Shown here: positions 94-32,183 of the stretch, one piece after another
Position numbering within the stretch: the stretch's first letter is position 1
Layout of the letters: each line of letters starts with the position of its first letter
From: an uncultured Opitutia bacterium
Lineage (GTDB): Bacteria > Verrucomicrobiota > Verrucomicrobiia > Opitutales > Opitutaceae
Direction of reading: 5' to 3'
Length of the DNA stretch: 57,770 nt
NCBI GenBank assembly: GCA_903825285.1
Contig: CAIJZY010000021.1
Span: forward strand, 1 to 57,770
Translations under genes and position numbers: made by a program
The notes under the pieces: generated by a model
Told to the model about the DNA's origin: nothing
Database searches by the model: none
What the model saw: only the letters and a program-made list of their open reading frames with translations

Positions 94-603
94 TCATTTT
101 GCGCCCTCCTTTCCTTGGTCAGACGTGACCTGTGACGGACTCTTTGCCGCGATAACGTTTCTGACAATCGCACGAATTGCCGTGCGCGTGTCCGCAGACA
201 ATTTGCTCCACGCCGAGACTATTTCCGCCAACTCCGCACACGCACGGTCCGCATTTGGGGAGTCTATCAGGGAAGATTCCAGTTCCGCACTTTCACATTC
301 GCTTCTTGCTCCGTTTGTAACCTTCTTTCTTTCTGAGCTTCGAGTCCCCCCTCGGGCACCAAATAGCCGATGCAGCTCGCTAGCTGCGGGATAGGCGATT
401 TGCACGAAGCTAGGCGGTGAGGGGCGCGCGAAATGGTCTGGGGCAGATTCAACCATCGTTTCACGTTCAACGAGCGTTAACCCCGTGTTGGCTCCACAAG
501 CCGGCGAGAGCGCAGAGTAAATCCTTAGCCGCAGAATGGATCTTCGGCGGACAAATTCTCCCGACGGGTCATCCTGACCGGGATCACCCGCGAATGGCCC
601 CAA
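94..603 (-). pseudogene. Possible remnant of an integrase or hypothetical protein tail
   Basis: The open frame covers 169 codons but has no recognisable catalytic domain. Its last part, read leftwards from about 270 to 94, has a composition like the short helical tail (acidic residues, then AEIVSAWSKL and an RTAIRAIVRNV helix) that I associate with the C-terminus of tyrosine recombinases or hypothetical proteins in Planctomycetes and Verrucomicrobia. The frame runs antisense through a tRNA 3'-end fragment at 339-361, an arrangement typical of recombinases that end inside their attachment site. The upstream part overlaps the end of the exporter gene at 584, so a full gene cannot be present. 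This could also be a spurious frame. The family assignment rests on memory of the tail motif only. Confidence 0.3.
339..361 (+). other. tRNA 3'-end fragment, putative attachment-site scar
   Basis: The sequence has the exact anatomy of a tRNA 3' terminus: a 7-nt T-loop TTCGAGT (339-345), a 5-nt T-stem strand CCCCC (346-350), a 7-nt acceptor strand CTCGGGC (351-357), discriminator A (358) and encoded CCA (359-361). The preceding bases TGAGC cannot pair with CCCCC, so the tRNA identity starts at the T-loop. This is the usual crossover block of tyrosine-recombinase attachment sites. The acceptor and the A discriminator fit a tRNA-Leu, but this is not certain. With this orientation the element it bounded would normally lie to the left, outside the window. 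Confidence 0.55.
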
Positions 604-1720
604 GAAGCTTGATCATGCCGAGGCCGACCGCGCCCACGGTCACAGCGGCGGACAGGCCAACGAAAAACGGACGCCAGCCCAGCCGTTTGAGACTGGCGAA
701 ACCAGTGCTCAGTCCCACTGCGGCCATCACTAAAGTGAGCAACCAAGTGGAGGCATGGTTCATAGAGCCCAGAAACTGGACCCAAAGTTCGTGGTCAATG
801 AATCCGAACGCGCGACTGGAGGCGTCACCCACGGTCCGGGCGATTGTCAGAAGAAGGAAGCCAAGTACAAAGGGCGGGAGAATCTGGTGACGCGGCCGAC
901 TCTTGGCATGTCCGCGCCGCCCACTGTGGAACAGCCCCGCCATCATCGGGATCACGGCTGCCATGCTGAGGTTGCGCATGATCTTCACGACCGTGGCAGT
1001 ATCGAGCACCGCCGGAGCATGGTGGGATTGCTGGTAGGCCAGCGCTGCGCCAGTCACCTGTGCCGTATCGTGGATGGCGGTACCGAAAAAGATGCCGATG
1101 GCGAGTGGATCATTTCCCAGCAGCCATGGGACGATGAACGGGTAGAGCAGCATCGCGAGCATGCCGAAGATGGCGACGCAGGCCACGGCATAGCTGACCT
1201 CCCCTTCCTCGGCATCGATGACCGGCGCGGTCGCCATGATCGCGGACACGCCACAAATACTGGTTCCCACGGCGATCAGCGTGGCCAGTCGTCGCGACAG
1301 CCCGGCTCTTGCCCCCATCCAAGGGATGATGACCAGTGCGGACGCAATGGTGGCAACAACCACGGGCATTGCCACTAAACCGATCCCACCGACGGCACCC
1401 AGACTCAGGCGCCAGCCGAGCAGCATGATCGCGATCCGTTGCAGCGGGCGCATGCAGGTGCGCAGACCTTCCTGAAAAACCGCCGGGATGCCTACCGTGT
1501 TGCACAGTATGATCCCCATCGCGATCGCGAGGGGGATGGCGCTGATCGGATTGAGGTGGGCGTCGAAGAATGTCCGGCCGATCCAGTCGGCGCTACTATT
1601 CGCCAGGTACGCGAGGGTCGCCGCAAGAAAGAAGCCGGGTACACTATCGCCCACCCAGCCCAACGCCCAATGCCCGATGCGGCTAACCGTGCGGGCGTTC
1701 CTGGGGGGAGAAATTCGCAT
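584..1720 (-). CDS. YeiH/PSE-family putative sulfate or sulfite exporter
   Basis: The 378-residue multi-spanning membrane protein matches the UPF0324/YeiH family (putative sulfate exporter, PSE). Family hallmarks include the AMGIILCNTVG region, GTSICGVSAIMATAPVI and the GTAIHDTAQVTGAAL segment. I chose the start at 1720 because GGAGG lies about 7 bases upstream of this ATG; a longer start at 1777 lacks such a site. It is divergent from the sulfoquinovose operon and has a half copy of the shared operator at 1794-1807. In this context it probably exports excess sulfite or an organosulfonate across the inner membrane. Substrate and direction are inferred from family and neighbours. Confidence 0.75.
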   Translation of the reverse strand: MRISPPRNARTVSRIGHWALGWVGDSVPGFFLAATLAYLANSSADWIGRTFFDAHLNPISAIPLAIAMGIILCNTVGIPAVFQEGLRTCMRPLQRIAIMLLGWRLSLGAVGGIGLVAMPVVVATIASALVIIPWMGARAGLSRRLATLIAVGTSICGVSAIMATAPVIDAEEGEVSYAVACVAIFGMLAMLLYPFIVPWLLGNDPLAIGIFFGTAIHDTAQVTGAALAYQQSHHAPAVLDTATVVKIMRNLSMAAVIPMMAGLFHSGRRGHAKSRPRHQILPPFVLGFLLLTIARTVGDASSRAFGFIDHELWVQFLGSMNHASTWLLTLVMAAVGLSTGFASLKRLGWRPFFVGLSAAVTVGAVGLGMIKLLGAIRG

Positions 1721-1793
1721 TACCCCCTCCAGGCTGTCCCAGCTGTCAAAAATCTCAGGTGTGTGGCGCGACGGCATGGGGCACGGCGTTTAT

Positions 1794-2000: not shown

Positions 2001-2762
2001 ATGAATTCCGTAAAACCCGCCCATTTTCTGCCTGCCAATGCGAGGGCCTTTACCTACACTGAAAAATCCAGCCCGGCCTCATCGCACCTGCAGTTTTTGA
2101 CCTATGGGGTCTATGAATTGGAAGGTAAGGCCGCGAGCGGAGTGCAGTCCCATCTGGGGGAGGAGGCGTTGCTGTTCGCCTTGAAGGGGCGGGTGACGGT
2201 CGAGTTGGGGGGAAAGACCTTCGTCATGGACCCCTATGATGTTATCTATGTGCCCCGCAACCAGGCCTACCGCCTCCGCCAGGAAGAGGGACAGGGCAAG
2301 TTGGTGGTCTGCCGGGCGCCCGCCAAGGTCGAGCACCCGGTTTATCACGCCAGTTGGAAGCAATACTCCCGTGACGAAAGCCGCATCCGGCATCTCAAGG
2401 GCAAGGACGTCTTTCTGATGTTCGATGTGAGTGAAGGCGCCGATAAGCTGATGGCGGGTTTTACACTGTTTCAGCCCGGCCAACGCTCCTGGCCGCCCCA
2501 CAACCATACGGATCAGGAGGAGATCTACATCTTTACCAAGGGGCGCGGCTCCATGGAGGTGTACGCGGAGGAGGAAACCAAGAGCTTTGTCCGCAGCGTG
2601 GCCGAAGGTGACGCGGTGACGATCCCCCTGTTGAATTACCACCCTGTCTTCAGCCAGGAGGAGGAACTGCACTTCATCTGGTGCATTGCCGGCAACCGCT
2701 ACTGGGTCGGCGACAAGAACAAGGACTTCATGACCGGCAAAGTGGACAAGTTGACGACCTAA
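2001..2762 (+). CDS. Two-cupin KduI/IolB-like isomerase, candidate sulfoquinovose isomerase
   Basis: The 253-residue protein has two cupin halves. The C-terminal half carries H167-x-H169, E174 and H214, matching the HxH(x4)E...H zinc site of KduI and IolB aldose-ketose isomerases. It is the first gene of the operon, one base short of abutting the mutarotase-like gene. No AGE-family (YihS-type) isomerase is present in the window, yet the downstream transaldolase needs sulfofructose. The simplest inference is that this cupin converts sulfoquinovose to 6-deoxy-6-sulfofructose in the cytoplasm. Family assignment is fairly firm; the substrate is inferred. It could instead act on another sugar acid. 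Confidence 0.7.
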   Translation: MNSVKPAHFLPANARAFTYTEKSSPASSHLQFLTYGVYELEGKAASGVQSHLGEEALLFALKGRVTVELGGKTFVMDPYDVIYVPRNQAYRLRQEEGQGKLVVCRAPAKVEHPVYHASWKQYSRDESRIRHLKGKDVFLMFDVSEGADKLMAGFTLFQPGQRSWPPHNHTDQEEIYIFTKGRGSMEVYAEEETKSFVRSVAEGDAVTIPLLNYHPVFSQEEELHFIWCIAGNRYWVGDKNKDFMTGKVDKLTT

Positions 2763-2763
2763 A

Positions 2764-3678
2764 ATGAGCGTCGTGCGGGAGGTAATTGCGTTCCAGGGCT
2801 GGCCCCACGCCCTGCGGCTCGCCAATGGCACGGTCGAGCTGATCATGACGCTCGATGTCGGGCCGCGGATTCTGTCCTACACCCGGCAGGGTGGACTGAA
2901 TCCCTTCAATATTTACGAGGATCAGGCTGGAGGCCGGGGAGAGGCGCAATGGCGCAACCGCGGGGGCCACCGGCTTTGGCTGGCACCCGAGGCTCCTGGG
3001 TTCAGCAATTTCCCGGACAACCAGCCGGTGGCTTGGGAAAAACTGGGCGACACCGGCGTCCGGCTGATTCCCCCGCCGGAGCCCGCGACGGGCTTCCAAA
3101 AGCAGATCGACCTCATTCTGGCGGCCACGGGAAGCAGGGTGACGGTACACCACCGCATCACCCGGATCTCCCCGGTTGCGAGCGTCGCCGCGCCGTGGGC
3201 TCTGAGTGTCATGGCCGCGGGCGGCACGGCAATCCTGCCCCAGCCGCCCTTCGGCGAGCATCCCCGCGACCTGCTGCCCAACCGGCGGCTGGTGGTCTGG
3301 CCCTACACGGATCTTGCCGACGCGCGCTATCGGCTCGGACGGAAATTCTTCACCGTGCGGCAGGATACGGCGGGGGTCCCCACCAAGATCGGCCTGGCCA
3401 CGTCGGTGGGCTGGGCCGCCTATCACCTGCCGCGCACCCTGTTCATCAAATATTTCACCCGAGCGGCCAGCGCCGATTACCCCGACGACGGCTGCAACCT
3501 CGAGGTCTTTACCAACGGGCGGATGCTGGAGCTGGAAACGCTGGGGCCACTGCAGCGCTTTGAACTGGGCACCACCGCGGAGCTGACCGAGCACTGGGAT
3601 TTGCGGACCGATCTACCGGAGATCGACCCTGGCGACGAAGCGGCCCTGGCGGCCTATTTTCAGCTTGCTCCCGCATAG
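2764..3678 (+). CDS. Galactose-mutarotase-fold protein, candidate SQ mutarotase
   Basis: The 304-residue protein resembles the DUF4380 group of aldose-1-epimerase-fold proteins: an early [16 protein letters not shown] strand pair, a [10 protein letters not shown] segment and a late [18 protein letters not shown] block. It starts two bases after the cupin stop, so the genes are likely co-translated. E. coli has a dedicated SQ mutarotase (YihR) in its SQ operon; an analogous anomer-interconverting role here is an inference from position. There is no signal peptide, so it is probably cytoplasmic. I cannot see decisive catalytic residues from sequence alone. Confidence 0.6.
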
Positions 3679-3725: not shown

Positions 3726-4004
3726 ATGATCTCATTCCTCATGCACGAAAAACAGGACACCGTCGGCGTCGCCGTCGTGGACCTCAAAGCCGGCCAGGTG
3801 GTGCAGGGACGCTCCCTGCATGGCAAATGCACGCCGCGGCTCAAGACCCTGAGCGACATCCCGCTCGGCCACAAGATTGCGCTCCAGCCCTTCAAGCCAG
3901 GCGACACCGTGTTCAAGTATGGCGTCGACATCGGAAAGATCGTGGCGCCGGTGAAAAAGGGCGAACACGTCCACGTCCACAACCTCAAGACCAAGCGCTG
4001 GTAA
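3726..4004 (+). CDS. suyA: (2R)-sulfolactate sulfo-lyase, alpha subunit
   Basis: The 92-residue protein is a SAF-domain (UxaA N-terminal) small subunit. The opening [18 protein letters not shown] and the later [21 protein letters not shown] are characteristic of SuyA. With SuyB it eliminates sulfite from (R)-sulfolactate, giving pyruvate; the reaction is cytoplasmic and iron dependent in this family. It is followed after 8 bases by the large subunit. An ATG at 3741 (residue 6) is an equally good start, since neither has a clear ribosome-binding site. Altronate dehydratase small subunits are related, but the sulfonate neighbours favour SuyA. Confidence 0.85.
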
Positions 4005-4012
4005 TCTTCCCC

Positions 4013-5176
4013 ATGAAAACTCCCACCTTTCTCGGCTATCGGCGCAAGAATAAGCGGGTCGGAATCCGCAACCATGTCATCATCCTGCCGGTTGATGATA
4101 TTTCCAACGCGGCCTGCGAGGCCGTGGCCAACAACGTCAAGGGCACGATGGCGCTTCCGCACGCCTACGGGCGGCTCCAATTCGGCGAAGATCTCGAGCT
4201 CTTCTTCCGCACGATGATTGGCACGGGGTCCAACCCCAATGTTGCCGCGGTCGTCGTGATCGGCATCGAGCCAGGTTGGACGCAGCGGATCGTCGACGGG
4301 ATCGCCAAGACGGGCAAGCCGGTCGCCGGTTTCTCGATCGAACGGCATGGCGACTTGAAAACGATCGCGGAGGCCTCGCGGACGGCCAAGGAATACGTTC
4401 AGTGGGCCAGCGAGCTCCAGCGCGTGGAGTGCACGGTCGATGAACTCTATATCTCCGTGAAATGCGGCGAATCGGACACGACCACCGGCCTGGGTTCATG
4501 TCCGGCGGTCGGCAACGTGATCGACAAGACGGTGGCGATGGGGGCCACCGCCTCCTTCGGCGAAACCTCGGAGCTGACAGGCGGCGAACATATCGTGAAG
4601 GCGAAGGCCGCAACGCCGGCCATCGGTGAGGCGTTCATGAAGGTGTGGAACAACTACAACGACATGATCATGAAGGAAAAGACGGATGATTTGTCCGAGT
4701 CGCAGCCGACCAAGGGCAACATTCGCGGCGGCCTCACCACGATTGAGGAGAAGGCGATGGGCAACATCGAGAAACTCGGCAAGAAGACGAAGTTCGTGGG
4801 GGTGCTCAAGCCCGCCGAAGCTCCGACTCGCAAGGGCCTTTGGTTCATGGACACCTCGTCCGCCGCGGCCGAGGCGGTGACGCTGTGGGCGGCCTCAGGC
4901 GCGGTGGTGCATCTGTTCCCAACGGGGCAGGGCAACATCATTGGAAATCCGATCGAGCCCGTGATCAAGCTGTCCGCCAATCCTCTCACCTGCGCGACGA
5001 TGAGCGAGCACATCGACCTCGATGTCTCGGCCATTCTCCGGGGGGAGATGTCGGTGGACCAAGCCGGCGACAAGCTGCTGGCCTTGGTCGTGCGGACCGC
5101 CAGTGGACGTCTCACGGCCGCGGAGGCCTTGGGCCATCGTGAATTCGTGATGACAAAGCTCTACCGAAGCGCCTAG
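4013..5176 (+). CDS. suyB: (2R)-sulfolactate sulfo-lyase, beta subunit
   Basis: The 387-residue protein is a UxaA-family large subunit, with the opening [20 protein letters not shown], a central [19 protein letters not shown] segment and the C-terminal [18 protein letters not shown] motif. Its length fits SuyB, whose family is shorter than fused altronate dehydratases because the SAF part is a separate gene (suyA). The reaction is sulfolactate to pyruvate plus sulfite. The sulfite is the expected substrate of the dsr cluster 21 kb downstream, and pyruvate feeds fermentation or acetyl-CoA. I chose the ATG at 4013 because upstream codons overlap suyA. Confidence 0.88.
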
Positions 5177-5198: not shown

Positions 5199-6398
5199 AT
5201 GCCGACCGAAAGCGCATCCTCGAGCCGCTGCGGCGTGGTGTGGGCCAGGGAGCTAGTCCGCGATCTCGCCGTGGCGGCAAAAGTGCCGCCCGGCGATGCC
5301 GGGCGGTTTGCGGATGCCTTGGTTGCCGCAGACGTGGCGGGCATCCCCACCCATGGGATTTCCCGGTTGAACATCTATCTGCGGCGGATTCAAGCCGGGC
5401 TGATCAATCCGCGGGCCCGGCTGGCGGTTCGCCGCCGGCGGGGCGGCGTGCTCGTGCTCGACGCCAACAATGGCCTCGGCCAGGTCCAAACACTCAAGGC
5501 CTTGGACAAGCTCGTTCCGCTCGCTCGGGAGCATGGCGTGGCGGTCGCGACGATACGCAACTCGCAGCATTTCGGCGCCGTCTCGTACTACTGCAACAGG
5601 GCGGCAGCCCAGGGCATGATCCTGATTGCCTCCACGAATGGCGAGCCGGCCGTGTCGCCCGAGGGCGCGTGCCAAGCTTTTTTCGGCACCAACCCTTTGG
5701 CCGCCTCCTTCCCGACGGGCCTGGGCTGGCCCGTGAAGATTGATTTCGCCACTTCGATCGTGGCGCGGGGCAACATCATTGCTGCACAAAAGCGCGGCCA
5801 GCGGATCCCGCCAGGCTGGGCGCTGAACCTCGAGGGAGAACCGACCACCGACGCCGCGGCGGCATTGGCGGGCACGGTCCTCGCGTTGGGCGGGCACAAG
5901 GGTTACGCCTTGGCCTTGATGTTGGAGGTCCTGTCCGGGGTGTTGTCGGGCGCGGCGATCGGTCCGGCGGTGGGTTCGATGTACAAGAATATGAACCGCG
6001 CGCAGGGGGTGGGCCATTTCCTCTGCCTGCTGGACATCGCGGCCTTCATGGACGTCTCCGAGTTCAAACAACGGGTCGACCAAACGATCCAAGGGATCAA
6101 GGCGTGCCGGAAACGTCCCGGCGTTTCCGAGATTTTGGTCCCGGGGGAGCGCTCGCACCGCCGGGCCCAGGAGAACCACGAGCTGGGAATACCCCTCGAG
6201 GAATCCACGCGCGCGGAGTTGAAGCAGCTCTGCAAAGACCTGGGCGTGAAGTTCCGGCTCAATCCGGTCGACGATCTCCGGCCACCGGCGCCCCGGCGGC
6301 GGTCCTTGCCTCGCGCGGCGGCGCACACGTTCCGTGGCGCAAGCTCGCAGTCCAGCCGCCGCGGCCCGACCCACCAAGCGCACCGGTGGCCCCAATGA
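5199..6398 (+). CDS. Ldh2/ComC-type dehydrogenase, candidate (R)-sulfolactate dehydrogenase
   Basis: The 399-residue protein belongs to the malate/L-lactate/sulfolactate dehydrogenase (Ldh_2) family. It keeps the catalytic-His segment AADVAGIPTHGISRL, the VLDANNGLGQV strand, IRNSQHFGAVSYY, the FFGTNPLAASFP nucleotide region and the GGHKGYALALMLEVLSG helix. ComC enzymes of this family oxidise (R)-sulfolactate to sulfopyruvate with NAD. Between suyB and the racemase-like gene, it may interconvert sulfolactate enantiomers via sulfopyruvate or drain sulfolactate. Its last 45 or so residues (after LGVKF) are a Pro/Arg/Ser-rich extension unlike the family, perhaps from loss of an older stop. The stop overlaps the next ATG as ATGA. 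Confidence 0.75.
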   Translation: MPTESASSSRCGVVWARELVRDLAVAAKVPPGDAGRFADALVAADVAGIPTHGISRLNIYLRRIQAGLINPRARLAVRRRRGGVLVLDANNGLGQVQTLKALDKLVPLAREHGVAVATIRNSQHFGAVSYYCNRAAAQGMILIASTNGEPAVSPEGACQAFFGTNPLAASFPTGLGWPVKIDFATSIVARGNIIAAQKRGQRIPPGWALNLEGEPTTDAAAALAGTVLALGGHKGYALALMLEVLSGVLSGAAIGPAVGSMYKNMNRAQGVGHFLCLLDIAAFMDVSEFKQRVDQTIQGIKACRKRPGVSEILVPGERSHRRAQENHELGIPLEESTRAELKQLCKDLGVKFRLNPVDDLRPPAPRRRSLPRAAAHTFRGASSQSSRRGPTHQAHRWPQ

Positions 6399-7654
6399 TG
6401 CAAATCCGCGTTCCATATGGACGTTCCTTTGTGTCGGCCTCCGTTCCGGATCTGACGGGGATCGATATCATTGAGGCCGCGGAAACACCGGGGGCCGCCG
6501 ATCCGGCCGGCGCCGTCCGCTCGGCTCTGGCCAACCTTTGCGGCGGGGCAACGTGGGCTGATTTCGCGGGAGCGCGCTCGGTGGCCATCACCGTCAACGA
6601 CAAGACGCGTCCCGTTCCCCATCATCAGCTCCTGCCGCCGCTGCTGGAGCGCCTCGCCGCCCTCGGGATCCCCGATACCGCCATTACCTTTTACGTGGCC
6701 GTGGGGACGCATCCGCCGATGACACGGGACGAATTTCCGGCGATCCTGCCGGGCGAGATCCTGAAGCGCTATCAGGTGGTGTCACACGATGCGGAAGATG
6801 GCGACCAGCTGACCAACTTGGGCGAAACCTCGCGTGGAACGCCGGTCTGGTCCAACAAGGCCTACGTCGCCGCTGACCTGAAGATCGTGGTGGGCAATCT
6901 CGAGCCCCATCAGTTCGTCGGTTTCTCCGGCGGCGTGAAAGGTGCAGCCATCGGGCTTTCCGGGTTGCAGACGATCAACCGCAATCACGCGCTGATGATG
7001 CATCCCGATTCCCAGTTGGGCGAATACGAGACCAACCCGGCGCGGCAGGACGTGGAGGAAATCGGGGCCAAAATGGGAATCCACCTGGCGTTGAACGCCA
7101 TCTTGAATCAGCACCGGCAGATCGTGCATGTGCTCGCGGGTGAGCCCCGCGCCGTGATGCGGGCCGGGGTGCCGCTCTCGCGTCAGGTTTGCCAGGTGGG
7201 CGTTGCATCGAGGTACAGCCTCCTCATCACCTCACCGGGCGGGCACCCCAAGGACATCAATATTTACCAGGCGCAGAAGGCGCTCGGGCACGCGGCGCTG
7301 GTCGCCCGGCCGGGCGGGACCATCATCCTCGTGGCCGCCTGTCCCGAAGGCACGGGCAGCCCGCACTACGAGGAATGGATGACAGGGAAAAAGTCCTACG
7401 AGGAAATCATCAAACGCTTCAGCGCCGAGGGCTTCCGCATCGGGCCGCACAAGGCTTATCAAATTGCCCGCGATGCCTCCAGGACGCGGCTGCTCTTCTG
7501 CACAGGAATGGACGAATGCCTGGCGCGGGCCCTGTTGCTCAATCCGGTCCGGGATTTCCAGGCCGCGGTGGACGAGGCGTTGCCGCGACTGCGGCCCGGT
7601 GAGCGGATCGGCGTTCTCCCCCATGCCAACTCCACCATTCCTTACCTGATATAA
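6395..7654 (+). CDS. LarA-family nickel-pincer racemase, candidate sulfolactate racemase
   Basis: The 419-residue protein is a LarA (DUF2088) homologue. All key residues of Lactiplantibacillus LarA align with a constant offset of two: H106 (GTHPP), H172 (EPHQF), K182 (GGVKG, the cofactor-attaching lysine) and H198 (NRNH, nickel ligand). It should therefore use the nickel-pincer nucleotide cofactor and racemise or epimerise a 2-hydroxy acid. The start overlaps the dehydrogenase stop. Aldehyde oxidation of sulfolactaldehyde is expected to give (S)-sulfolactate while SuyAB needs (R), so sulfolactate is the obvious substrate; this is inference. LarB, LarC and LarE, needed to make the cofactor, are not in the window. 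Confidence 0.8.
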   Translation: MMQIRVPYGRSFVSASVPDLTGIDIIEAAETPGAADPAGAVRSALANLCGGATWADFAGARSVAITVNDKTRPVPHHQLLPPLLERLAALGIPDTAITFYVAVGTHPPMTRDEFPAILPGEILKRYQVVSHDAEDGDQLTNLGETSRGTPVWSNKAYVAADLKIVVGNLEPHQFVGFSGGVKGAAIGLSGLQTINRNHALMMHPDSQLGEYETNPARQDVEEIGAKMGIHLALNAILNQHRQIVHVLAGEPRAVMRAGVPLSRQVCQVGVASRYSLLITSPGGHPKDINIYQAQKALGHAALVARPGGTIILVAACPEGTGSPHYEEWMTGKKSYEEIIKRFSAEGFRIGPHKAYQIARDASRTRLLFCTGMDECLARALLLNPVRDFQAAVDEALPRLRPGERIGVLPHANSTIPYLI

Positions 7655-7729: not shown

Positions 7730-8377
7730 ATGAAACTATTCATCGACACAGCTGACATCGCCCAGATCAAGGAGACCTACTCGTGGGGCATCATTGATGG
7801 CGTCACCACGAATCCTTCCCATGTCGCAAAGACCGGCCGGCCTGCGGCCGCAGTCTATCGGGACATCTGTGCAATCGTCGACGGGCCAATCAGCCTCGAG
7901 ACGCTGAGCCTCACCGCCCCGGAGATGATCGCCGAAGGGCGCGAGCTCGCCAAATTCCACCGCAACGTGGTCGTAAAAATTCCCATGACACGCGAAGGCA
8001 TGAAGGCCGTGAAGGTCCTGGCCGCGGAGGGGATCAAGACCAATGTGACCGTGACCTTTTCACCGTTGCAGGCCCTGCTCGCCGCCAAATGCGGGGCAAC
8101 CTACATCAGCCCCTTTGTGGGTCGGCTGGACAGCTTTGGCCACACCGGGATGGATTTGGTCCGGCAGATCAAACAGATTTACACGAACTACGGCTACAAG
8201 ACGGAGATCATCGTCGCCGCCGTCCGGCATCCCCTGCATGTGCTGGAGGCCGCGCTGGCCGGGGCCGAGGTGGCCACAATGGGTTATGACGTCATGGTTC
8301 AACTCTATCACCACCCCCTGACCGACTTGGGCATCGAGACGTTCCTCAAGGATTGGAAGAAAGTTCCCCAGTCATGA
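7730..8377 (+). CDS. sftT: Small transaldolase, candidate 6-deoxy-6-sulfofructose transaldolase
   Basis: The 215-residue protein is a TalC/fructose-6-phosphate-aldolase-type transaldolase. It has D6 in MKLFIDTAD, the GVTTNPS strand and the Schiff-base lysine K83 in VVVKIPMT. In the sulfo-TAL route of sulfoglycolysis this enzyme class cleaves sulfofructose and passes the C3 unit to glyceraldehyde-3-phosphate, releasing sulfolactaldehyde and fructose-6-phosphate. The position directly before an aldehyde dehydrogenase and in an operon with suyAB supports that function over a housekeeping transaldolase. The acceptor could come from glycerol through the GlpK/GlpD operon. The next gene overlaps by ATGA. 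Confidence 0.8.
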
Positions 8378-9795
8378 AAACACTACCGCTGTATTTGGGA
8401 GGGAAATGGGCGACATCCACCACCACCCTCCAGGTCCACAATCCCGCCAACGGTCATGCCATCGGCGAAGTCTGCACCGTGGGCCGGCCCGTGGTGGCGC
8501 AAGCCCTCGCCGACGCGCACGCGGCACTGGCTGGCTGGCGCGCCTTGACGGGCAAGGAACGAGGCGACCGCCTCCGGGCGGTGGCTGATCACCTCGTGCG
8601 CCGCCGCGACGAGGTCGCTCGGACAATCACGCTGGAAAACGGCAAACCCCTGGCGCAAAGCCTCGGGGAAGTGGCCATGTCGGTCGACCACCTGCTGTGG
8701 TTTGCCGAAGAGGCCCGAAGGGCCTACGGCCGCATCGTCCCGGCCCAAGCGGCGGGTAAACGCCACCTCGTGGTGAAGACGCCCATCGGGGTTGTGGCCG
8801 CCATCAGTCCATGGAACTTTCCATTGGTGCTGGCGGTGCGCAAGATCGCGCCGGCGCTGGCCGCCGGCTGTCCGGTGGTATTAAAGCCGGCCAGCGCCAC
8901 TCCGCTGTGCGCCCTCCTGTTCGCGGAATGTGTCGAAGCCGCCGGGTTGCCGGCCGGTGTCTTCCAGGTCGTGCTGGGCCGCGCGTCGGAAATCGCCGCT
9001 GAATTTCTGGAAAACCGGCTCTGCCGCAAGATCACCTTCACGGGTTCCACCGAGGTGGGGCAGCTGCTGATCCGAGGCGCGGCCCCGGACATCAAGCCCC
9101 TGTCACTCGAGCTTGGAGGGCACGCGCCGGTCCTCATCTTTGCCGATGCCGACCTGGACCAGGCAGTGGAAACGGCCATGATCGCGAAATTCAGAAATTC
9201 GGGCCAGTCCTGCATCGCGGCCAACCGGATCTACGTGCAGCGGCCGATCTATGAGGAATTTCTGGTGCGTTTCGCGCAGAAGGCCCGTGAGTTGAAGGTT
9301 GGCGACGGGTTGGAGGCCGGCGTAAATGTCGGTCCCGTGATCAACCAGGAGGGGCTCGACAAGGCGCTGGCGCATATCGCCGATGCCAAGGCGCGCGGCG
9401 CCCGTTGCCTGTGCGGGGGCCGGCGCATGGACCGGCCGGGATGGTTCCTGGAGCCGACCGTATTGGCGGACGTCCCGGAGGCGGCCGCCTGCATGAGCGA
9501 GGAAACGTTCGCCCCCGTGGCCGCGGTTTGCTCCTTCGAGACTGAAGAGGAGGCCGTCACGCGGGCCAACGCCTCGCCGTTTGGCCTGAGCGCCTATGCC
9601 TGCACGCGGGACCTCGGCCGGACCTTCCGGTTGATCGAGAGCCTGGAGGCAGGGACGATTGGGATCAACGACGGCGCCCCGTCGACGAGCCAGTGTCCCT
9701 TCGGCGGGACCAAACATAGCGGGTGGGGACGAGAACTAGGCAACGAAGGGCTGGACGCATTTCTCGAAACCAAACATGCTTCGCTCGTTCTGTGA
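8374..9795 (+). CDS. Aldehyde dehydrogenase, candidate sulfolactaldehyde dehydrogenase
   Basis: The 473-residue protein is a canonical NAD(P)-dependent aldehyde dehydrogenase, closest in feel to succinate-semialdehyde dehydrogenases. N148 (SPWNFP), E246 (LELGG) and the nucleophile C280 (GQSC) are all present. Its ATG overlaps the transaldolase stop, so translation is coupled. In sulfoglycolysis an enzyme of this type (SlaB, GabD or SftD class) oxidises 3-sulfolactaldehyde to 3-sulfolactate, and that role fits here. It ends in a GTGA overlap with the regulator gene. Substrate specificity is inferred from context only. Confidence 0.8.
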
Positions 9796-11096
9796 GACGA
9801 TCCGCATTTCAAACCACCCATCTGGCATCGGACATCCTCAAGCGGGTACGCGCTTGCGGGGGCATTTCACGCGTGGATTTGGCGCGGGACTTGGGCTTGG
9901 CTCCGTCCACGGCCGGCATCTATGTCGAACGACTCATCACCCGGGGATTCCTGCTTGAGACCGAGGAAACCACGGGTGACGCCGGCCGTCCCCCGCGAAT
10001 CCTGCGGACGAATCCAGAGGGCGGAGAGTTCATCGGGGTCGATTTTGAAGCCCGGAACATCATGGCCGTGGCTGTGGATTTTTCCGACCGGCCGCTGCGG
10101 AATTCCCACAAGCTGATTGAGGCCGATGAGACCGTGGAGCAGGTCATCGCCAAGATTGCGGACGCGATCGAGGAAGTGCTGCCGGGGGCGAATCGGCGGA
10201 ACCTGGCCATCGGGGTGGGCGTTCCCGGCATTGTTGATTCGGGCAAGGGCGTGGCGGTGCACTACAAGTACATTCGCAAATGGGACAATGTGCCGCTGGC
10301 CAAGATCCTGTCGGAGCGATTTGACGTCCCGGTGTTTTTGGAAAACAACGCCCGTTCCATGGCCTTGGCCGAGCTTTGGTTTGGCCAGGGCAAGGGACAC
10401 GATGACTTTCTCTGCATCGGAATCCGGAGCGGCATCGGGGCTGGCATGGTCCTGAATGGCCGCGTTTATTCCGGCGCCCACCATGCGGCGGGGGAATTGG
10501 GGCGCTGGCGCTATCTGGCTATGTCCGCCCCCGCGGCACCTTGGTTTGCGCCGATGACGGGCGATGGCGACGCGGACGGACCGGAGTTGGAGGAAATCGC
10601 CTCGGTCCGGGCGGTGCAGCGCGCGCTGCAAAATGCCGTGGCGAAGGGGAAAAAGACGGTGCTGGCTGGCAGCAAGTCGCATATTTCGGTGACGGACATC
10701 GTCAACGCCTGCCAACAACGGGATGCATTAACGATTCGGGTGGTCAGCGAGTCCGCAGGGGCGCTCGGCTGGGCCATCGGTCAGCTTTCCCTCGCCGTGG
10801 ATCCGGGCAAGATCGTCCTGGCGGGACCGCTGACCGCGTTGGGCGAGGTTTTCCTCCAGCCGCTGCGCGCCCGGGTCGATCGATTGCTGCGCCTCTCCGG
10901 CTCGCGTTCACCCGAAATCGTGAATTCCACGATGGGTGAGTACAGTGGCGCGCTGGGCGCCGCAGCGCTGGCGTTGCACGAGTGGAAACCGGTACTGGGT
11001 GGGCGTGGGCGCGAGTCGGAAGCGGAAGGCCCGCCAACTCCCAAGGGGCGCAAGACCCGGGACGCGAAGGGCAAACCAAGTGGGAAGCTGACCTGA
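9792..11096 (+). CDS. ROK-family transcriptional regulator, likely pathway repressor
   Basis: I chose a GTG start at 9792 that overlaps the dehydrogenase stop as GTGA; an ATG 69 bases upstream would lie deep inside the previous gene. The protein begins with a winged-helix domain (ISRVDLARDLGLAPSTAGIYVERLITRGFL) and continues with a ROK sugar-kinase-like fold, including GVGVPGIVDSG and NNARSMALAE. The usual ROK zinc motif (HxxGExGH followed by CxCGxxGCxE) is degenerate: AGELGRWRY remains but the cysteines are gone. It is therefore probably a sensor and not a kinase. As last gene of the operon it is the best candidate to bind the shared TTTCG-N4-CGAAA sites. A Lys/Arg-rich tail follows. Confidence 0.75.
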   Translation: MRRSAFQTTHLASDILKRVRACGGISRVDLARDLGLAPSTAGIYVERLITRGFLLETEETTGDAGRPPRILRTNPEGGEFIGVDFEARNIMAVAVDFSDRPLRNSHKLIEADETVEQVIAKIADAIEEVLPGANRRNLAIGVGVPGIVDSGKGVAVHYKYIRKWDNVPLAKILSERFDVPVFLENNARSMALAELWFGQGKGHDDFLCIGIRSGIGAGMVLNGRVYSGAHHAAGELGRWRYLAMSAPAAPWFAPMTGDGDADGPELEEIASVRAVQRALQNAVAKGKKTVLAGSKSHISVTDIVNACQQRDALTIRVVSESAGALGWAIGQLSLAVDPGKIVLAGPLTALGEVFLQPLRARVDRLLRLSGSRSPEIVNSTMGEYSGALGAAALALHEWKPVLGGRGRESEAEGPPTPKGRKTRDAKGKPSGKLT

Positions 11097-14357: not shown

Positions 14358-16376
14358 TCAAGCTTTCGCCAAGGCGAGTAATTGGGCCTGCATCGCGCAG
14401 CCCTGGCGCACGAACACGGGTGGTTGACCCAAGGGCGCCGCCACCGTCACGCGTGCACCGCCGTCGAATTCCCTCCCGGTCCACAAATGGATCCAGCGGG
14501 CCCCCGCCGGGAGGTAGGGCTCCCAGGAGTCGCGTCCCGCAGCGTGCACCGGCGCGACGAGCAAGTCGGCGCCGTAAAGGTATTCGTCCTGAATCGTGTA
14601 GGCCTGTGGGTCGTCCTCGAAATGCAGGAAGAGCGGACGCTGCAGAGGCAAACCTTGGGTGGCCGCCTGTTCCGCGAGCTTCCGGACATATGGGACCAGG
14701 GCGATGTAGATGCGCGTCATTCGCGCGAAATGCGCCAGTACGCCGTCGTCCTGCCAGAACTGAAAATTTTCGTCGGGCCGGTTGCCCTCGTGAGTGCGCA
14801 TGACCGGCGTGAAGGCGGCCATTTCGGCCCAGCGCTGAAAAAGTTCCGGGGTGCGCCGGTTTCCGAACAGGCTCGTGTAGCCGCCAATGTCGCTGTGATG
14901 GTATGCATTGCCAAGCAAACCCGACGAAAGCGCGCCGCAGATGACCGTCTGAAGCCCATCGTGGCGGGTGAAGTCCACGGACTGGTCGCCCGCCCAAAGG
15001 AGCGGGCAATGCGCTTGGATGCCGGTGTACCCGGCGCGCATGAAAAAGAGCACGTCGCCCTTTCGACCGGCTTCTGCGACCGCGTCGGCGTTGACCTTGG
15101 CCCACATCGTGGGCCAGGCGTTATGCATTAACATGGGGTCGGCGCCGCTTGCGAGTTTGACATCGGTCGGCAGGTATTCGCCGAAATCGGCCATCCAGCC
15201 ATCCAGACCGGCGTCAATCATCTCCTGCCGGATGACCCGGCGCCCATACCACCGGGCGGCCTCGGGGTTGGTGAAATCGACCACGCCGCAGCCGAATTCG
15301 CCAAAATCCACGATGTACTCACCGCCGCTTGCGTCGGTGGCCAAATAGCCTGCCGCCTGCGCCTCCTTGTAGATCACGCCGTCGCTGCACAGATAGGGCG
15401 TTGCGTAGCCAAGAAAACGGACACCGCGCGCATTGAGCGAGGCAACCCAGGTGCGCGCGTTCGGGTAGCGCCGTTCATTCCAGTGCCAGTCCCAAAACAG
15501 GCGATTGCCAAAGGAAGTCTTGCGGAGGCCCACCCAGTCCTCGCACCAAAGCGCGGAGACTTTGACGCCGTGTTCGCGGCTGAGCGCCAGGATGCGTTCC
15601 GCATGTTCGGGACCGTTTTTCAGCCCGAGGATCGCCCCCTTGAACACCCAATCGGGAAGAGCAGGCTGCCGGCCAAACCGATTGGAAATGCGCTCGATCA
15701 GGCCGATGAAACTCTTGGCCGTGAACAATTCGATCCGAGCGGGCACCGCCCAGAACTGGAGCTCGTGGAAATGCGGGTGGCGAAAATCAAAGTCGGCATA
15801 CGCCGTCGTCTCGGCATGCAGGCAATAGCGGTGGGAGGAAACGAAGGTCGGCTGCGGGTAGTTGGTTGTGTAATAGTCGCCACCGGCTTTCCCGGTCGTG
15901 TCCGCCTGCCATGTGAGGTAGGTGGTTTTATCGCGACCAACGCCCGGTTCTGAAGTCCACAGCGGGAAGTGTCGGCCGCGCAGATCGAAATAGGACATCT
16001 GTTCCCCGCCTCCCCACACGTGCTCATCGGGTTGTGCCATGACCCGCCACCACAAACGGTTGATGGACCCTGCCGCTTGGGAAAATTCGATGACTGCCCC
16101 CGAGGCGTCGGCCCGCACGGTAAGGACCAGTTCCGCCTCCACGTGTGCGGTTCGGGCCAGCGACACGCGCACCCCGCCTGCAGTCACCTCAACCCGGGCG
16201 TGCCGCAACGGCACCCGTTCCTCCACGTAGTCGGCAAATTCAAAGTTCCCATGGTGCATCTTGACCGACGCAATCCCGGACCCGACGAAACAGCACGGGG
16301 TGCTGGGAGTATGCTCGATGAGCGACCGTCCTTCATGGCGCAGAGCCCAAGTTGCCTGGTCAAAAACAAATTCCAT
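14358..16376 (-). CDS. yihQ: GH31 sulfoquinovosidase
   Basis: The 672-residue glycoside hydrolase matches E. coli YihQ in length and active site. R292 and W295 in GNRLFW correspond to the sulfonate-binding R301/W304 pair, Y500 in DIGGY to Y508, D397 in WMADFGEY to the nucleophile D405, and D464 in WAGDQ to the acid/base D472. It should cleave alpha-sulfoquinovosides such as sulfoquinovosyl glycerol to SQ and the aglycone. No signal peptide is visible (MEFVFDQATW start), so it acts in the cytoplasm. It leads an operon with glpK and glpD, and a copy of the shared operator lies about 170 bases upstream. Confidence 0.93.
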   Translation of the reverse strand: MEFVFDQATWALRHEGRSLIEHTPSTPCCFVGSGIASVKMHHGNFEFADYVEERVPLRHARVEVTAGGVRVSLARTAHVEAELVLTVRADASGAVIEFSQAAGSINRLWWRVMAQPDEHVWGGGEQMSYFDLRGRHFPLWTSEPGVGRDKTTYLTWQADTTGKAGGDYYTTNYPQPTFVSSHRYCLHAETTAYADFDFRHPHFHELQFWAVPARIELFTAKSFIGLIERISNRFGRQPALPDWVFKGAILGLKNGPEHAERILALSREHGVKVSALWCEDWVGLRKTSFGNRLFWDWHWNERRYPNARTWVASLNARGVRFLGYATPYLCSDGVIYKEAQAAGYLATDASGGEYIVDFGEFGCGVVDFTNPEAARWYGRRVIRQEMIDAGLDGWMADFGEYLPTDVKLASGADPMLMHNAWPTMWAKVNADAVAEAGRKGDVLFFMRAGYTGIQAHCPLLWAGDQSVDFTRHDGLQTVICGALSSGLLGNAYHHSDIGGYTSLFGNRRTPELFQRWAEMAAFTPVMRTHEGNRPDENFQFWQDDGVLAHFARMTRIYIALVPYVRKLAEQAATQGLPLQRPLFLHFEDDPQAYTIQDEYLYGADLLVAPVHAAGRDSWEPYLPAGARWIHLWTGREFDGGARVTVAAPLGQPPVFVRQGCAMQAQLLALAKA

Positions 16377-26309: not shown

Positions 26310-27725
26310 ATGGAAAAGATTAAACTCTCCTGCGCGAAATGCGGTTTTGTGATCGAGGAATACACGGCCGAGGAGCTGGCCACTGTTCCCCGGAAAGCGA
26401 AGCGCTACCAATACCTGAAGAACAAATCGAGCATCTGCCCGTCCTGCCTGGCGTCGGGGCGGCTTCAGGACGTTCGCGTAAACGAAGAAGGCGGGCCGGC
26501 GGTCGCCGCAGGGGCGGCCGCCCCGGCCAGTTCCACGGCTGCGCCGGTGGGGCACGAGGAACACGCGGAGTCGCCGACGCCGATGATGGATGCGATTTCA
26601 CAAGGGCGTTTTCCGAGCCATGCAACGGAACTGAAGAAGACCAAGTACCCGGTCCAGATGTACGAGCAGGCCCTGCAGCAGCGCCGGACGCAATGGGGCT
26701 ATGGCGGCTATGTTTCATTGCCCGGGGTTGCTTCCGGGGTGCTCGTCCGGGCGTCGGCCCGGCCGGAGATCACCAAGGGTTCGAATTTTGTGCGGATCAT
26801 GGACCCGTGCGGAAACTTTTTCAGCACCGCCTCCATGCGGGGGCTATGCGATATTGCGGACAAGTATGCTTACGGACTGCTGCACCTGCTCAGTACCGGG
26901 GGAGACTTGGAGCTGCTCGGCATCCCGACCGAGAACCTGAAGCCGGCGGTCGAGGAAATCACGAGCCTCGGTTTTGACATTGGGTCGACCGGCGACGACT
27001 ATCGGACGAGCGAGGAGTGCATCGGGCCGGCCAAGTGCGACCTGACGCTCTACGATACGCTGGGACTGCGGGCCGCCTGGTACAAACGCTTCCTGGACGA
27101 CGTCCAGTACCCGCGCTTCCCGCACAAGATCAAATGCAAGTTTGCCGGCTGCCCGAACGACTGCGTGCGCGGTTGCCAGAAGGCGGACATCTTTCTCTGT
27201 GGCGTCTACCGGGATGCGCCCAAGGTCGACCAGCAGAAGGTCGCGAAATGGGTCGAGGCCGGCGGCGACATCACGACGGTGTGCTCGCGCTGCCCGGGCC
27301 AGGCCATGCAATGGGAGGCCGGGAAGGGGCTGCGCGTTGATGAGGACAGCTGCATGCATTGCATGTACTGCAGCAACAAGGTCCCGGGCGTCAGACCCGG
27401 TGGCGACCGCGGCGTGGCCGTCCTCGTCGGCGGGAAACTGCGCGGCAAGTTCGGCCCGATGCTTTCGCGCGTGCTGGTTCCCTTCATCAAGGCGGAGGGC
27501 CCGGATTACAAAGAGGTCTTCGACTGCATCGAGAAATTCACCGAGGTGTACGACGCGAATGCCCGCAAGAAGGAGCGCGTGGGGGACTTCATCCTGCGCA
27601 TCGGCATCGATGAATTCTACAAGCTGGCGGGAGTCGAACCTTCGCCCCAGCTGCTGAAGCAACCGCGCACCAATTTCTTCTGCCATTGGGAGCCCGCGGA
27701 AGTGAAGGACGAGCGCAGGCACTGA
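26310..27725 (+). CDS. dsrA: Dissimilatory sulfite reductase alpha subunit
   Basis: The 471-residue protein is DsrA. The siroheme-[4Fe-4S] cysteines are C237 and C243 (CIGPAKC) plus C281 and C285 (CPNDC); the ferredoxin domain uses C328, C348, C351 and C354. It pairs with DsrB to reduce sulfite, delivering sulfur to DsrC as a trisulfide. An unusual N-terminal extension of about 90 residues contains two CxxC pairs (C8/C11 and C43/C46), resembling a zinc ribbon or rubredoxin-like knuckle. An Ala/Pro-rich linker (about 58-85) joins it to the reductase. Desulfovibrio DsrA has no such domain. Confidence 0.93.
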   Translation: MEKIKLSCAKCGFVIEEYTAEELATVPRKAKRYQYLKNKSSICPSCLASGRLQDVRVNEEGGPAVAAGAAAPASSTAAPVGHEEHAESPTPMMDAISQGRFPSHATELKKTKYPVQMYEQALQQRRTQWGYGGYVSLPGVASGVLVRASARPEITKGSNFVRIMDPCGNFFSTASMRGLCDIADKYAYGLLHLLSTGGDLELLGIPTENLKPAVEEITSLGFDIGSTGDDYRTSEECIGPAKCDLTLYDTLGLRAAWYKRFLDDVQYPRFPHKIKCKFAGCPNDCVRGCQKADIFLCGVYRDAPKVDQQKVAKWVEAGGDITTVCSRCPGQAMQWEAGKGLRVDEDSCMHCMYCSNKVPGVRPGGDRGVAVLVGGKLRGKFGPMLSRVLVPFIKAEGPDYKEVFDCIEKFTEVYDANARKKERVGDFILRIGIDEFYKLAGVEPSPQLLKQPRTNFFCHWEPAEVKDERRH

Positions 27726-27753
27726 ACAACCCATCCCACGAAAGGACCATCCC

Positions 27754-28812
27754 ATGCCAGGAATCGGAATTCCCTCCCTCGAAGCGAGCCTCCCGCCCAT
27801 CGTGAAGCGGAACTATGGCAAATGGACCTCGCACGAGCACATCCGCCCCGGCGTCATCAAGCATGACGCCGAATCGGGCGAGGCGTGTTACACGGTGCGG
27901 GCGGCCATGCCGCCCAACGCGCGCGTCAGCACCCCGACCATGCGGCTGCTGTGCGACCTGGCCGATGATTTTTCCGAAGGCTTTTTCCGCGTCACACAGC
28001 GCAATTCGATCGAGTTCGTCGGCGTCCCGGTCGGGCGCATCGAGGAGCTGATCGCCAGCCTGGCCGGTCATGGCTTCCCGGTCGGTGGCACCAACCGGTC
28101 GCTGCACAACATGACGTGCTGCACGGGCTATATGCACTGCCATCTGGCCGCGACCGATCCGGCGGCCATCGTCAAGGCGGTCTCGGAAATGCTGAGCAAG
28201 GAGTATGAAACCGACTGCCTCCCGGCCAAGTTGAAGATCTCGGGTTCCGGCTGCATCAACAACTGCGGCGAAGGCTCCTGCGCCGACATCGGCATCGTCG
28301 GCGTGCACCGCGACCTTCCGCCGATCAACGCGGAGAAGCTCAAGGGCTGCGAGCTACCGCTGGTCATCTCGGTCTGTCCCGTCGGCGCGATCCGGCCCAA
28401 GGGCCCAGGCATGGTCGAGATCGACCCCAAAAAGTGCATCCATTGCCCCGCTTGCTCGGTGGCTTGCGCGGCCTTCGCTCCGATCGGCAGCGCCAACGGC
28501 GACGGCGTGGCGATTGTGGTTGGCGGCAAATCCGGCAATACCGGTGACGGTCCGGCCCTCGCCAAGATGGTCGTGCCCTATCTCCCCAACAATCCCCCGT
28601 ACTGGCCCGAGGTGACAGAGACCGTGCGGAAGATCGTGGATGCCTGGGTGGCGAACGCCCACCGCGACGAGCGGGTGGGCGAATGGATCAACCGCATCGG
28701 ATGGGAGAAATTTTTCCGCCGCACCGGGCTGCCGATGTCGTTCAAGCTGGTCGACGGCTATGACGCCCGGTCGCTCGAGTATGCCCGCACCAACGTGCGG
28801 TTCCGCTGGTAG
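27754..28812 (+). CDS. dsrB: Dissimilatory sulfite reductase beta subunit
   Basis: The 352-residue protein is DsrB. It has TGYMHC and GSGCINNCG supplying the siroheme-cluster ligands of the catalytic site. A ferredoxin domain follows (VCPVGAI, then CIHCPACSVAC), and the C-terminal ERVGEWINRIGWEKFF segment is shared with other DsrB. GAAAGGA lies about 8 bases before the ATG, a strong ribosome-binding site. It follows dsrA by 28 bases. Together they form the alpha2beta2 sulfite reductase of the cytoplasm. Assigning the direction as reductive depends on the SuyAB context, because no accessory marker gene settles it. Confidence 0.95.
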   Translation: MPGIGIPSLEASLPPIVKRNYGKWTSHEHIRPGVIKHDAESGEACYTVRAAMPPNARVSTPTMRLLCDLADDFSEGFFRVTQRNSIEFVGVPVGRIEELIASLAGHGFPVGGTNRSLHNMTCCTGYMHCHLAATDPAAIVKAVSEMLSKEYETDCLPAKLKISGSGCINNCGEGSCADIGIVGVHRDLPPINAEKLKGCELPLVISVCPVGAIRPKGPGMVEIDPKKCIHCPACSVACAAFAPIGSANGDGVAIVVGGKSGNTGDGPALAKMVVPYLPNNPPYWPEVTETVRKIVDAWVANAHRDERVGEWINRIGWEKFFRRTGLPMSFKLVDGYDARSLEYARTNVRFRW

Positions 28813-28866
28813 CCACGACTCCCGCCCCGCGACACGCCCAACTTCAACCCAGATCCATCCATCACC

Positions 28867-29184
28867 ATGCCGACCATCACGCTAGGCAATGAACTCTTCG
28901 AGGTAGACGAGGACGGCTTCATCCAAGATCCCAGCCGCTGGAGCGAAGCCGTCGCGACCGGCCTCGCCAGCGAGGAGGGCATCAGCGAACTGACCGAGGA
29001 TCACTGGAAAGTGATCCGCTTCCTGCACGACTATTACTCGCAGTTTGGCAGCGCGCCGATGGTCCGAAAGCTTTGCAGGGAGACGGGTTTCGACCTGAAG
29101 ACGATCTACCGGCTGTTTCCGACCGGCCCGGCCAAAGGCGCATGCAAGCTGGCCGGACTCCCCAAACCGACGGGCTGCGTATGA
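28867..29184 (+). CDS. dsrC: DsrC sulfur carrier protein
   Basis: The 105-residue protein ends in the flexible DsrC arm with both redox cysteines, C93 and C104, and the terminal GCV. Spacing and numbering equal those of Desulfovibrio vulgaris DsrC. TusE-type relatives have only the last cysteine, so this is a true DsrC. It accepts sulfur from DsrAB as a trisulfide that the DsrMKJOP complex reduces, releasing sulfide. It sits directly after dsrB, whereas in many sulfate reducers dsrC is elsewhere in the genome. About 105 bases without a gene follow. Confidence 0.95.
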   Translation: MPTITLGNELFEVDEDGFIQDPSRWSEAVATGLASEEGISELTEDHWKVIRFLHDYYSQFGSAPMVRKLCRETGFDLKTIYRLFPTGPAKGACKLAGLPKPTGCV

Positions 29185-29289
29185 CGCCCGGGATCGCGCT
29201 TCTCCTTTGTCGCGGGGGCGGAGGCGGTGGCGCCGCCATTTCCTTGAGCGGTCGTCGCCTCGCAACCCATAGAAAAATCCAGACTCCCC

Positions 29290-29475
29290 ATGTACATCAT
29301 CACGATCGATGAGGCCAAGTGCACGAACTGCACCGAATGCGTGAAGATCTGCCCTTCCGAGGTGTACAAGCTCGAGAACGGGAAGGTCGTCGTCGGCAGC
29401 AGCGACGATTGCAGCAAGTGCGAGAGCTGCCTGTCGGTGTGCGCGCCCATGGCAATTACCGTCGTTGAAATGTAG
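29290..29475 (+). CDS. 2[4Fe-4S] ferredoxin
   Basis: The 61-residue protein has two cluster motifs, C11/C14/C17/C21 and C41/C44/C47/C51. The second is CxxCxxCxxxC followed by Ala instead of Pro. It lies between dsrC and dsrM, 17 bases before dsrM. Its likely role is passing electrons to DsrAB or between DsrAB and the membrane complex; ferredoxin genes are found in several dsr clusters. The true partner is not visible. Confidence 0.88.
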   Translation: MYIITIDEAKCTNCTECVKICPSEVYKLENGKVVVGSSDDCSKCESCLSVCAPMAITVVEM

Positions 29476-29492
29476 CCGCCGGTGATTACCCC

Positions 29493-32182: not shown

Positions 32183-32183
32183 G

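Follow-up and report, generated by a model that had tools for sequence, protein, structure and literature searches.

A LarAH5-group protein encoded among sulfolactate genes of a verrucomicrobial genome is a probable direct sulfolactate racemase

The stretch of DNA analysed here (the window, 57,770 bases) comes from a genome of the phylum Verrucomicrobiota (G000). At 6395-7654 it contains a gene for a protein of the LarA superfamily, which lies in an operon with genes for sulfolactate breakdown. We propose that this LarAH5-group protein probably racemises sulfolactate directly, a reading drawn from sequence and gene context; the wider statement is limited to LarAH5 members linked to a close relative of the window's SuyB. 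In sulfoglycolysis, (S)-sulfolactaldehyde is formed and converted to (S)-sulfolactate, and the sulfo-lyase SuyAB cleaves the (R) form; the established sulfolactate racemase is a pair of enzymes, SlcC and ComC (PMC12421959, PMC9594981). A sequence-only reading of this DNA had relied on the same points. From the gene order, the protein family, the conserved residues and the co-occurrence with SuyAB across phyla, we infer the substrate, the stereochemical role and the use of a nickel-pincer nucleotide (NPN) cofactor in this host.

In the proposed pathway, a sulfosugar, probably sulfoquinovose, would be cleaved by the transaldolase to give (S)-sulfolactaldehyde, which the aldehyde dehydrogenase would convert to (S)-sulfolactate. 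LarA would invert C2 by proton-coupled hydride transfer on the nickel-pincer cofactor, via enzyme-bound sulfopyruvate, with H106 and H172 as the acid/base pair. SuyAB would split the resulting (R)-sulfolactate into pyruvate and sulfite. Sulfite inhibits LarA in a reversible, competitive manner. The genes follow each other on one strand in the order KduI/IolB cupin, mutarotase-like protein, SuyA, SuyB, Ldh_2-family dehydrogenase, LarA, transaldolase, aldehyde dehydrogenase and ROK regulator (Table 1). The location of LarA among sulfolactate genes, pointed out in the sequence-only reading, is thus borne out on both sides, with SuyA, SuyB and Ldh_2 located 5' and the transaldolase and aldehyde dehydrogenase 3'.

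The LarA reading frame is intact, with no internal stops, and its ATG overlaps the stop codon of the upstream Ldh_2 gene as ATGA. The protein carries the Pfam domains Lar_N (PF09861, 187 bits) and LarA_C (PF21113, 49.5 bits). Its score with the NCBIfam LarAH5 model, named "malate racemase" (NF052595), is above the cut-off of 462 bits, and all seven further LarAH5 members scanned with this model, drawn from the 80 loci described below, also exceed it. The cut-off for LarAH6 is missed (407 against 500 bits). Lactate racemase proper was considered and rejected, since the NF033504 score of 280 bits falls short of the cut-off (460) and the pocket is of the malate type (H-K). By family models and residues, the protein is a member of the LarAH5 (malate-racemase-like) group and LarA proper is excluded. 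The earlier label of a LarA-type racemase therefore stands for the superfamily and not for LarA proper, since the protein is of the LarAH5/MAR1 type with H352-K353.

For comparison, a scan of named genomes yielded 568 confirmed relatives, of which the 80 best LarAH5 loci were retained; more exist. By title these loci belong to Chloroflexota, Acidimicrobiia/Actinomycetes and Verrucomicrobiota. Alignment with Mar2 shows that D69, R72, H106, H172, K182, H198 and K295 are conserved in the window protein, and these catalytic and cofactor residues are invariant in all 80 members. Four of them (H106, H172, K182 and H198) equal LarA H108, H174, K184 and H200 minus 2, confirming the constant offset reported from the sequence alone. 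The malate-racemase signature H352-K353, at the positions of LarA W358/T359, is likewise invariant (80/80). The Q173 column, which we take from published text to be the group 5 Q/H site, holds Gln in 76 members and His in 4, where group 6 has Phe. Sulfolactate carries a sulfonate where malate has its second carboxylate, and the two molecules are nearly alike in shape. The K353 position has been proposed to hold the second carboxylate of malate (PMC11770544). The AlphaFold model of the protein has a mean predicted local distance difference test (pLDDT) score of 95.9. Its best fold match in the PDB by E-value is the Mar2 malate racemase (7s91; template modelling scores 0.83/0.86), and 9eia and 5huq also match. 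Compared with the copy in a sister genome of the same genus (G060; 91% identical), the ratio of nonsynonymous to synonymous substitution rates (dN/dS) is 0.13, indicating purifying selection.

R348 was considered as a sulfonate-specific residue and set aside. The position is basic in 36 of the 37 LarAH5 members with a close SuyB in the locus or genome (a set that counts L053, L075, L089 and L108, the SuyB of L108 being a 133-residue fragment) and in 21 of the 43 others. This is a hint only, because Arg also occupies this position in Mar2 and the grouping mirrors the tree.

The linkage of LarAH5 to SuyB carries most of the argument. In this survey, counts and identities of SuyA, SuyB, Ldh_2, transaldolase and GH31 were obtained by tblastn. 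Those of PF03601, aldehyde:ferredoxin oxidoreductase, malate synthase, MFS and M24 genes came from a simple open reading frame (ORF) caller, with a Pfam scan of one representative per family, and should be read as minima; the caller missed LarA in 5 of the 80 loci, and antisense shadow ORFs were sometimes taken for SuyB (community 16). SuyB is found in 54 of the 80 LarAH5 loci and SuyA in 47, and in all 54 SuyB lies upstream on the same strand. Its identity to the window's SuyB is at least 55% in 33 of the 54 (hereafter close) and 35-40% in the other 21 (divergent). SuyB lies within 1.5 kb in 49 of the 80 loci and in none of 28 loci whose LarA homologues share 29-35% identity with the window LarA, where flanks of up to about 1.5 kb were covered; as the rows are related and hence not independent, the Fisher value serves as a guide only. 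The LarAH5 tree places the window LarA within a clade of 21 rows (Shimodaira-Hasegawa-like approximate likelihood ratio test, SH-aLRT, 100) in which the three phyla are mixed. The partial L120 was left out of this tree, and only its interior was used, as four long-branched outgroup rows did not fall on one side.

The association was also examined in reverse, by searching the SuyB of L048 in 396 genomes of one class (centred on G393). Matches at E 1e-40 were found in 93 genomes, of which 27 reached at least 60% identity (five partial). LarA was then searched in 73 of the 396 genomes: all 27 with close SuyB, 26 of the 66 whose SuyB was weaker and 20 of the 303 that lacked SuyB. LarAH5 (at least 49% identity) is present in 25 of the 27 close-SuyB genomes; in 19 it follows SuyB on the same strand at a distance of at most 2.6 kb, in 1 it is about 20 kb away and in 5 it is on other contigs. 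It is present (at least 43%) in 16 of the 26 weaker-SuyB genomes, not counting a broken fragment in G721, and in none of the 20 SuyB-less genomes, where the best LarA is 36% identical. Genetic linkage to SuyAB, as expected of a sulfolactate racemase, is thus seen in both directions (54/80 loci and 25/27 genomes); at least 10 of the 27 genomes were already in the LarA scan, so the two tests overlap. The G721 fragment (G721:C4:2942-3295) has two in-frame stops, lies about 0.6 kb after a divergent SuyB and is probably a decayed LarAH5 copy.

The identity of SuyB itself was assessed from its relatives. The best NCBIfam model for the window SuyB is galactarate dehydratase, far under its cut-off. 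Proteins on 13 plasmid records share 60-80% identity with the window SuyB, and other UxaA-family proteins among the matches listed are below 40%. One of the plasmid proteins, encoded beside hpsN and hpsO in Cupriavidus pinatubonensis, is 67.4% identical, and SuyAB has been identified in a strain of this species (PMC12890257). In five plasmid loci with close SuyB (Pseudomonadota, Rhodococcus), larA was found within 5 kb in none. Three of the five have a gene for a hydroxyacid or NAD(P)-dependent dehydrogenase and an Ldh-family gene, which is the SlcC/ComC arrangement; one has hpsN and hpsO, and one has neither within 5 kb. Plasmids did not yield close LarA relatives and were rejected as a source: LarA matches occur in 17 records, at about 36% identity for the best, and none of these is among the 13 SuyB records.

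LarAH5 loci almost entirely lack the dehydrogenase pair of the known racemase. Ldh_2, the ComC-like enzyme, has a match in one of the 80 loci, that of the sister genome, the next best hit being at E 0.11. The signature of SlcC-type 2-hydroxyacid dehydrogenases is also found in one, about 8 kb beyond LarA. In the Opitutaceae locus L044, SuyB and LarA are 181 bp apart and there is no Ldh_2 match. Together these observations indicate that the two dehydrogenases are not part of the module. The Ldh_2 gene of the window looks accessory, given its occurrence in 1/80 loci. Transaldolases in the chloroflexotal clusters are 35-42% identical to the window's, and aldehyde:ferredoxin oxidoreductase genes occur in at least 14 of the 80 loci, none of which has an aldehyde dehydrogenase match. 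The verrucomicrobial and chloroflexotal clusters differ in transaldolase yet share SuyAB-LarA, which therefore behaves as a module.

These data bear on the possibility that inversion is carried out by the ComC-like Ldh_2 and an unlinked (S)-sulfolactate dehydrogenase, LarA being idle or otherwise used for lack of cofactor. SlcC/ComC is the precedent for such a route, an Ldh_2 gene is in the operon, and larB, larC and larE were not found in G000. However, a search of the 57,770-base window with two PROSITE patterns found no 2-hydroxyacid dehydrogenase signature, in agreement with the earlier statement that only a ComC-like enzyme is present. The best NCBIfam model for Ldh_2 is sulfolactate dehydrogenase (NF040650), at 265 bits against a cut-off of 500, and the window accordingly lacks a recognizable SlcC and ComC pair. 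Outside the sister genome's locus, Ldh_2 has no match at E 1e-6 in any of the 79 remaining loci. Constraint is stronger on LarA (dN/dS 0.13) than on Ldh_2 (0.27), and LarA has kept its active-site residues. We consider the dehydrogenase route quite improbable. The sequence-only proposal of a direct racemase in place of SlcC/ComC is therefore well supported by the SuyAB linkage in three phyla and the near-absence of both dehydrogenases, and corrected with respect to the Ldh_2 enzyme, which looks accessory, being present in 1/80 loci.

A malate racemase, as the NCBI family name says, whose place in the operon has nothing to do with sulfolactate, would also satisfy the model score. Mar1 of Desulfitobacterium hafniense, a LarAH5 enzyme, racemises malate (PMC7583248), which is so close in shape to sulfolactate, and the adjoining Ldh_2 belongs to the malate/lactate dehydrogenase family, its best solved relative being 1vbi (malate/lactate type, 241 bits), followed by the sulfolactate dehydrogenase 2x06 (210 bits). 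The Michaelis constant (KM) of Mar1 for L-malate is 55 mM, however, and its authors doubt that malate is the native substrate and propose tartrate or 2-hydroxysuccinamate (PMC7583248). D. hafniense DCB-2 is reported to use sulfolactate as an electron acceptor (PMC12890257), and a SuyB candidate is listed for D. hafniense DSM 12704 (PMC6278857). LarAH5 tracks close SuyB in the reverse test (25/27 against 0/20), and the Ldh_2 gene on which a malate reading would draw is confined to 1/80 loci and is best matched by the sulfolactate dehydrogenase model, though below its cut-off. One LarAH5 subclade does occur near malate synthase. In this clade of 18 rows, SuyB is either divergent or missing, and a malate synthase gene was called close to LarA in at least 14 of the 18 loci (13 with divergent SuyB); none of these 14 has a close SuyB. 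LarAH5 proteins of this clade may be real malate racemases or act on another substrate. For the window protein, we regard malate racemase as an unlikely assignment. The malate-synthase loci usually also contain MFS, DUF6978 and DUF1828/1829 genes.

Several observations weigh against a sulfolactate racemase. The divergent SuyB of 21 of the 80 loci is as far from the window's as other UxaA-family proteins are, and the malate-synthase clade may fall outside this function. SuyB is missing from the stretch examined in 26 of the 80 loci; of these 26 genomes, 3 have a full-length close SuyB elsewhere, 1 has a fragment, 12 have only a 31-39% homologue and 10 have none. Two of the 27 close-SuyB genomes (G731 and G569) lack LarAH5. 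The family of the neighbouring Ldh_2 includes malate dehydrogenases, which would suit a malate racemase or the dehydrogenase route. Finally, the sequence-only reading had held that absence of larB, larC and larE (larBCE) from the genome would refute a racemase, and none of these genes, looked for as companions of the LarA superfamily, passed in G000 (96% complete) or in G060 (completeness listed as 100%). In G000, LarC was not found and LarB and LarE gave only partial matches far below cut-off; in G060, none of the three was found.

The missing cofactor genes are a recurrent property of this group. Fifty-two LarAH5 genomes were tested (G000, G060 and the genomes of L042-L091, which cover 50 of the 80 loci). 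All three genes are present in 12, only some in 2 (G421 and G428; with the 12, these form the 14 larBCE-positive genomes) and none in 38. This nearly all-or-none pattern makes incompleteness a poor explanation, although completeness is not given for the 50 locus genomes. LarC is present in 13 of the 52, compared with 53 of 70 other genomes of the phylum with a LarA match, tested out of 105 such genomes (p ~2e-8; the rows are related). In the window's own family, LarC is present in 2 of 9 genomes, so orphan LarA also occurs outside LarAH5. We read the absence of larBCE as a question of cofactor supply more than as a refutation of the racemase, because the same absence is seen again among SuyAB-linked LarAH5 and selection is acting on the gene. 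A LarA fold that works without the nickel-pincer cofactor, by other chemistry, would account for the 38 of 52 genomes without larB, larC and larE together. The NPN-tethering lysine, the nickel-ligating histidine and both catalytic histidines are nevertheless invariant in larBCE-positive and larBCE-negative genomes alike, and we find such chemistry hard to credit. G000 may obtain NPN otherwise. We put forward tentatively, as a possibility, that a nickel-pincer sulfolactate racemase is widespread in larBCE-less bacteria, where the pincer cofactor or a close relative would come from an undescribed biosynthetic or salvage route. An M24-like gene directly 3' of LarA was considered as an alternative cofactor gene and rejected; it occurs in 8 of the 80 loci, and tblastn found none in the window.

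A one-enzyme sulfolactate racemase would have several consequences. Oxidative breakdown of sulfosugars ends in (S)-sulfolactate and the sulfur-releasing enzyme needs the (R) form; a single racemase would fill this step in Chloroflexota, Acidimicrobiia and Verrucomicrobiota, and single organisms could take a sulfosugar to sulfite. The curated name "malate racemase" would be corrected for at least part of the LarAH5 family, and the weak malate binding of the published LarAH5 enzyme would be explained. It also raises the question of how larBCE-less genomes load a nickel-pincer enzyme. A LarA-type sulfolactate racemase was not found in the open literature searched, which does not extend to subscription articles such as Liu 2020, on clusters of Chloroflexi. 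The string "sulfo" has no occurrence in the available text of the two LarAH surveys (PMC11770544, PMC7583248).

Table 1. Positions of the LarA gene and its neighbours in the window, and loci of related features elsewhere
Feature	Position or loci	Strand	Evidence or remark
LarA-superfamily protein, LarAH5 (MAR1) group, 419 aa; proposed sulfolactate racemase	6395..7654	+	NF052595 532.1 bits, Pfam, residues, model
SuyA, small subunit of (R)-sulfolactate sulfo-lyase	3741..4004	+	TIGR03248 partial, 26.5 bits (far below cut-off); directly 5' of SuyB
SuyB, large subunit of (R)-sulfolactate sulfo-lyase (galactarate dehydratase family)	4013..5176	+	PF20629, PF04295
Ldh_2-family dehydrogenase, ComC-like, accessory	5199..6398	+	PF02615 379 bits
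Transaldolase/FSA-type, proposed sulfofructose transaldolase giving (S)-sulfolactaldehyde	7730..8377	+	PF00923; TIGR00875 310 bits
Aldehyde dehydrogenase, proposed sulfolactaldehyde to (S)-sulfolactate	8353..9795	+	PF00171 535 bits; TIGR01780 542 bits (below cut-off 646)
Mutarotase-like protein	2764..3678	+	NF052227 256 bits (below cut-off 550); no Pfam match
KduI/IolB-type cupin, possible sugar isomerase	2001..2762	+	PF04962 63 bits
ROK-family regulator (helix-turn-helix and ROK)	9723..11096	+	PF00480, PF13412
GH31 glycosidase, sulfoquinovosidase-like	14358..16376	-	NF007746/PRK10426 951 bits (cut-off 553)
PF03601 membrane protein, possible sulfite/sulfate exporter	584..1777	-	PF03601 222 bits
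Two further LarA homologues in G000	L038, L039 (G000:C2, G000:C31)		One short-chain-type, one gluconate-epimerase-like by signature; cofactor residues kept
Malate-synthase loci	L091, L092, L095, L102-L104, L107, L110-L112, L114-L116, L119		Malate synthase on opposite strand; 13/14 with divergent SuyB
M24-peptidase-like gene directly after LarA	L043, L045, L046, L047, L048, L051, L053, L093		7/7 tested genomes larBCE-negative

G000 has 3.74 Mb in 62 contigs, and the sister genome G060 has the same operon. The start of the aldehyde dehydrogenase is probably the ATG at 8374. A SqvD isomerase (FucI-type) was not found in the window by tblastn with SqvD-like proteins of other loci; the KduI/IolB cupin could be the sulfoquinovose isomerase. 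The GH31 model PRK10426 is that of YihQ. The PF03601 protein may export sulfite or sulfate, and its family is also found in at least 14 of the 80 LarAH5 loci. Further downstream, 26310-34620 encodes DsrA (328 bits, under the cut-off of 393) and DsrB, DsrM, DsrK, DsrO and DsrP above cut-off; a DsrC-like gene at 28867-29184 was spotted by eye. A type III sulfide:quinone reductase is encoded at 34583-35908, scoring 578 bits (cut-off 525) with NF049943, the selenoprotein-subtype model. As the Dsr genes share the window with the sulfosugar cluster, G000 alone may take sulfoquinovose to sulfide. Dsr of Verrucomicrobiota has been read as possibly oxidative, based on the lack of dsrD and the presence of DsrL-1 (PMC10591310).

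The proposed racemase can be compared with four known systems. Mar1 of D. hafniense falls in the same NCBIfam LarAH5 group and catalyses NPN-dependent inversion at C2 of a 2-hydroxyacid with two acid groups (PMC7583248). Its published assays were on carboxylates, whereas the gene neighbourhood of the window protein suggests sulfolactate, and searches of its host found no larBCE; the likeness is drawn by description. The LarAH6 enzyme Mar2 of Thermoanaerobacterium thermosaccharolyticum (PDB 6d6z, 7s91) is the closest solved sequence (phmmer E 7e-76, 36% identity) and shares the lysine for the second acid group. It differs in the loop after the second catalytic histidine, which is Y-K in Mar2 and Q-F in the window LarA, and, unlike Mar1, has a high affinity for malate (KM 0.38 mM; PMC7583248). 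Extended clusters in Thermotogae and Chloroflexi that combine sulfo-TAL (the transaldolase route) with SuyAB likewise allow a single organism to convert sulfoquinovose to pyruvate and sulfite, although the section describing them names no racemase (PMC9594981). SlcC/ComC of Chromohalobacter salexigens and Paracoccus performs the same net job, conversion of (S)- to (R)-sulfolactate ahead of SuyAB. That system uses two NAD(P) dehydrogenases and free sulfopyruvate, whereas the LarAH5 protein would do so as a single racemase with a bound cofactor.

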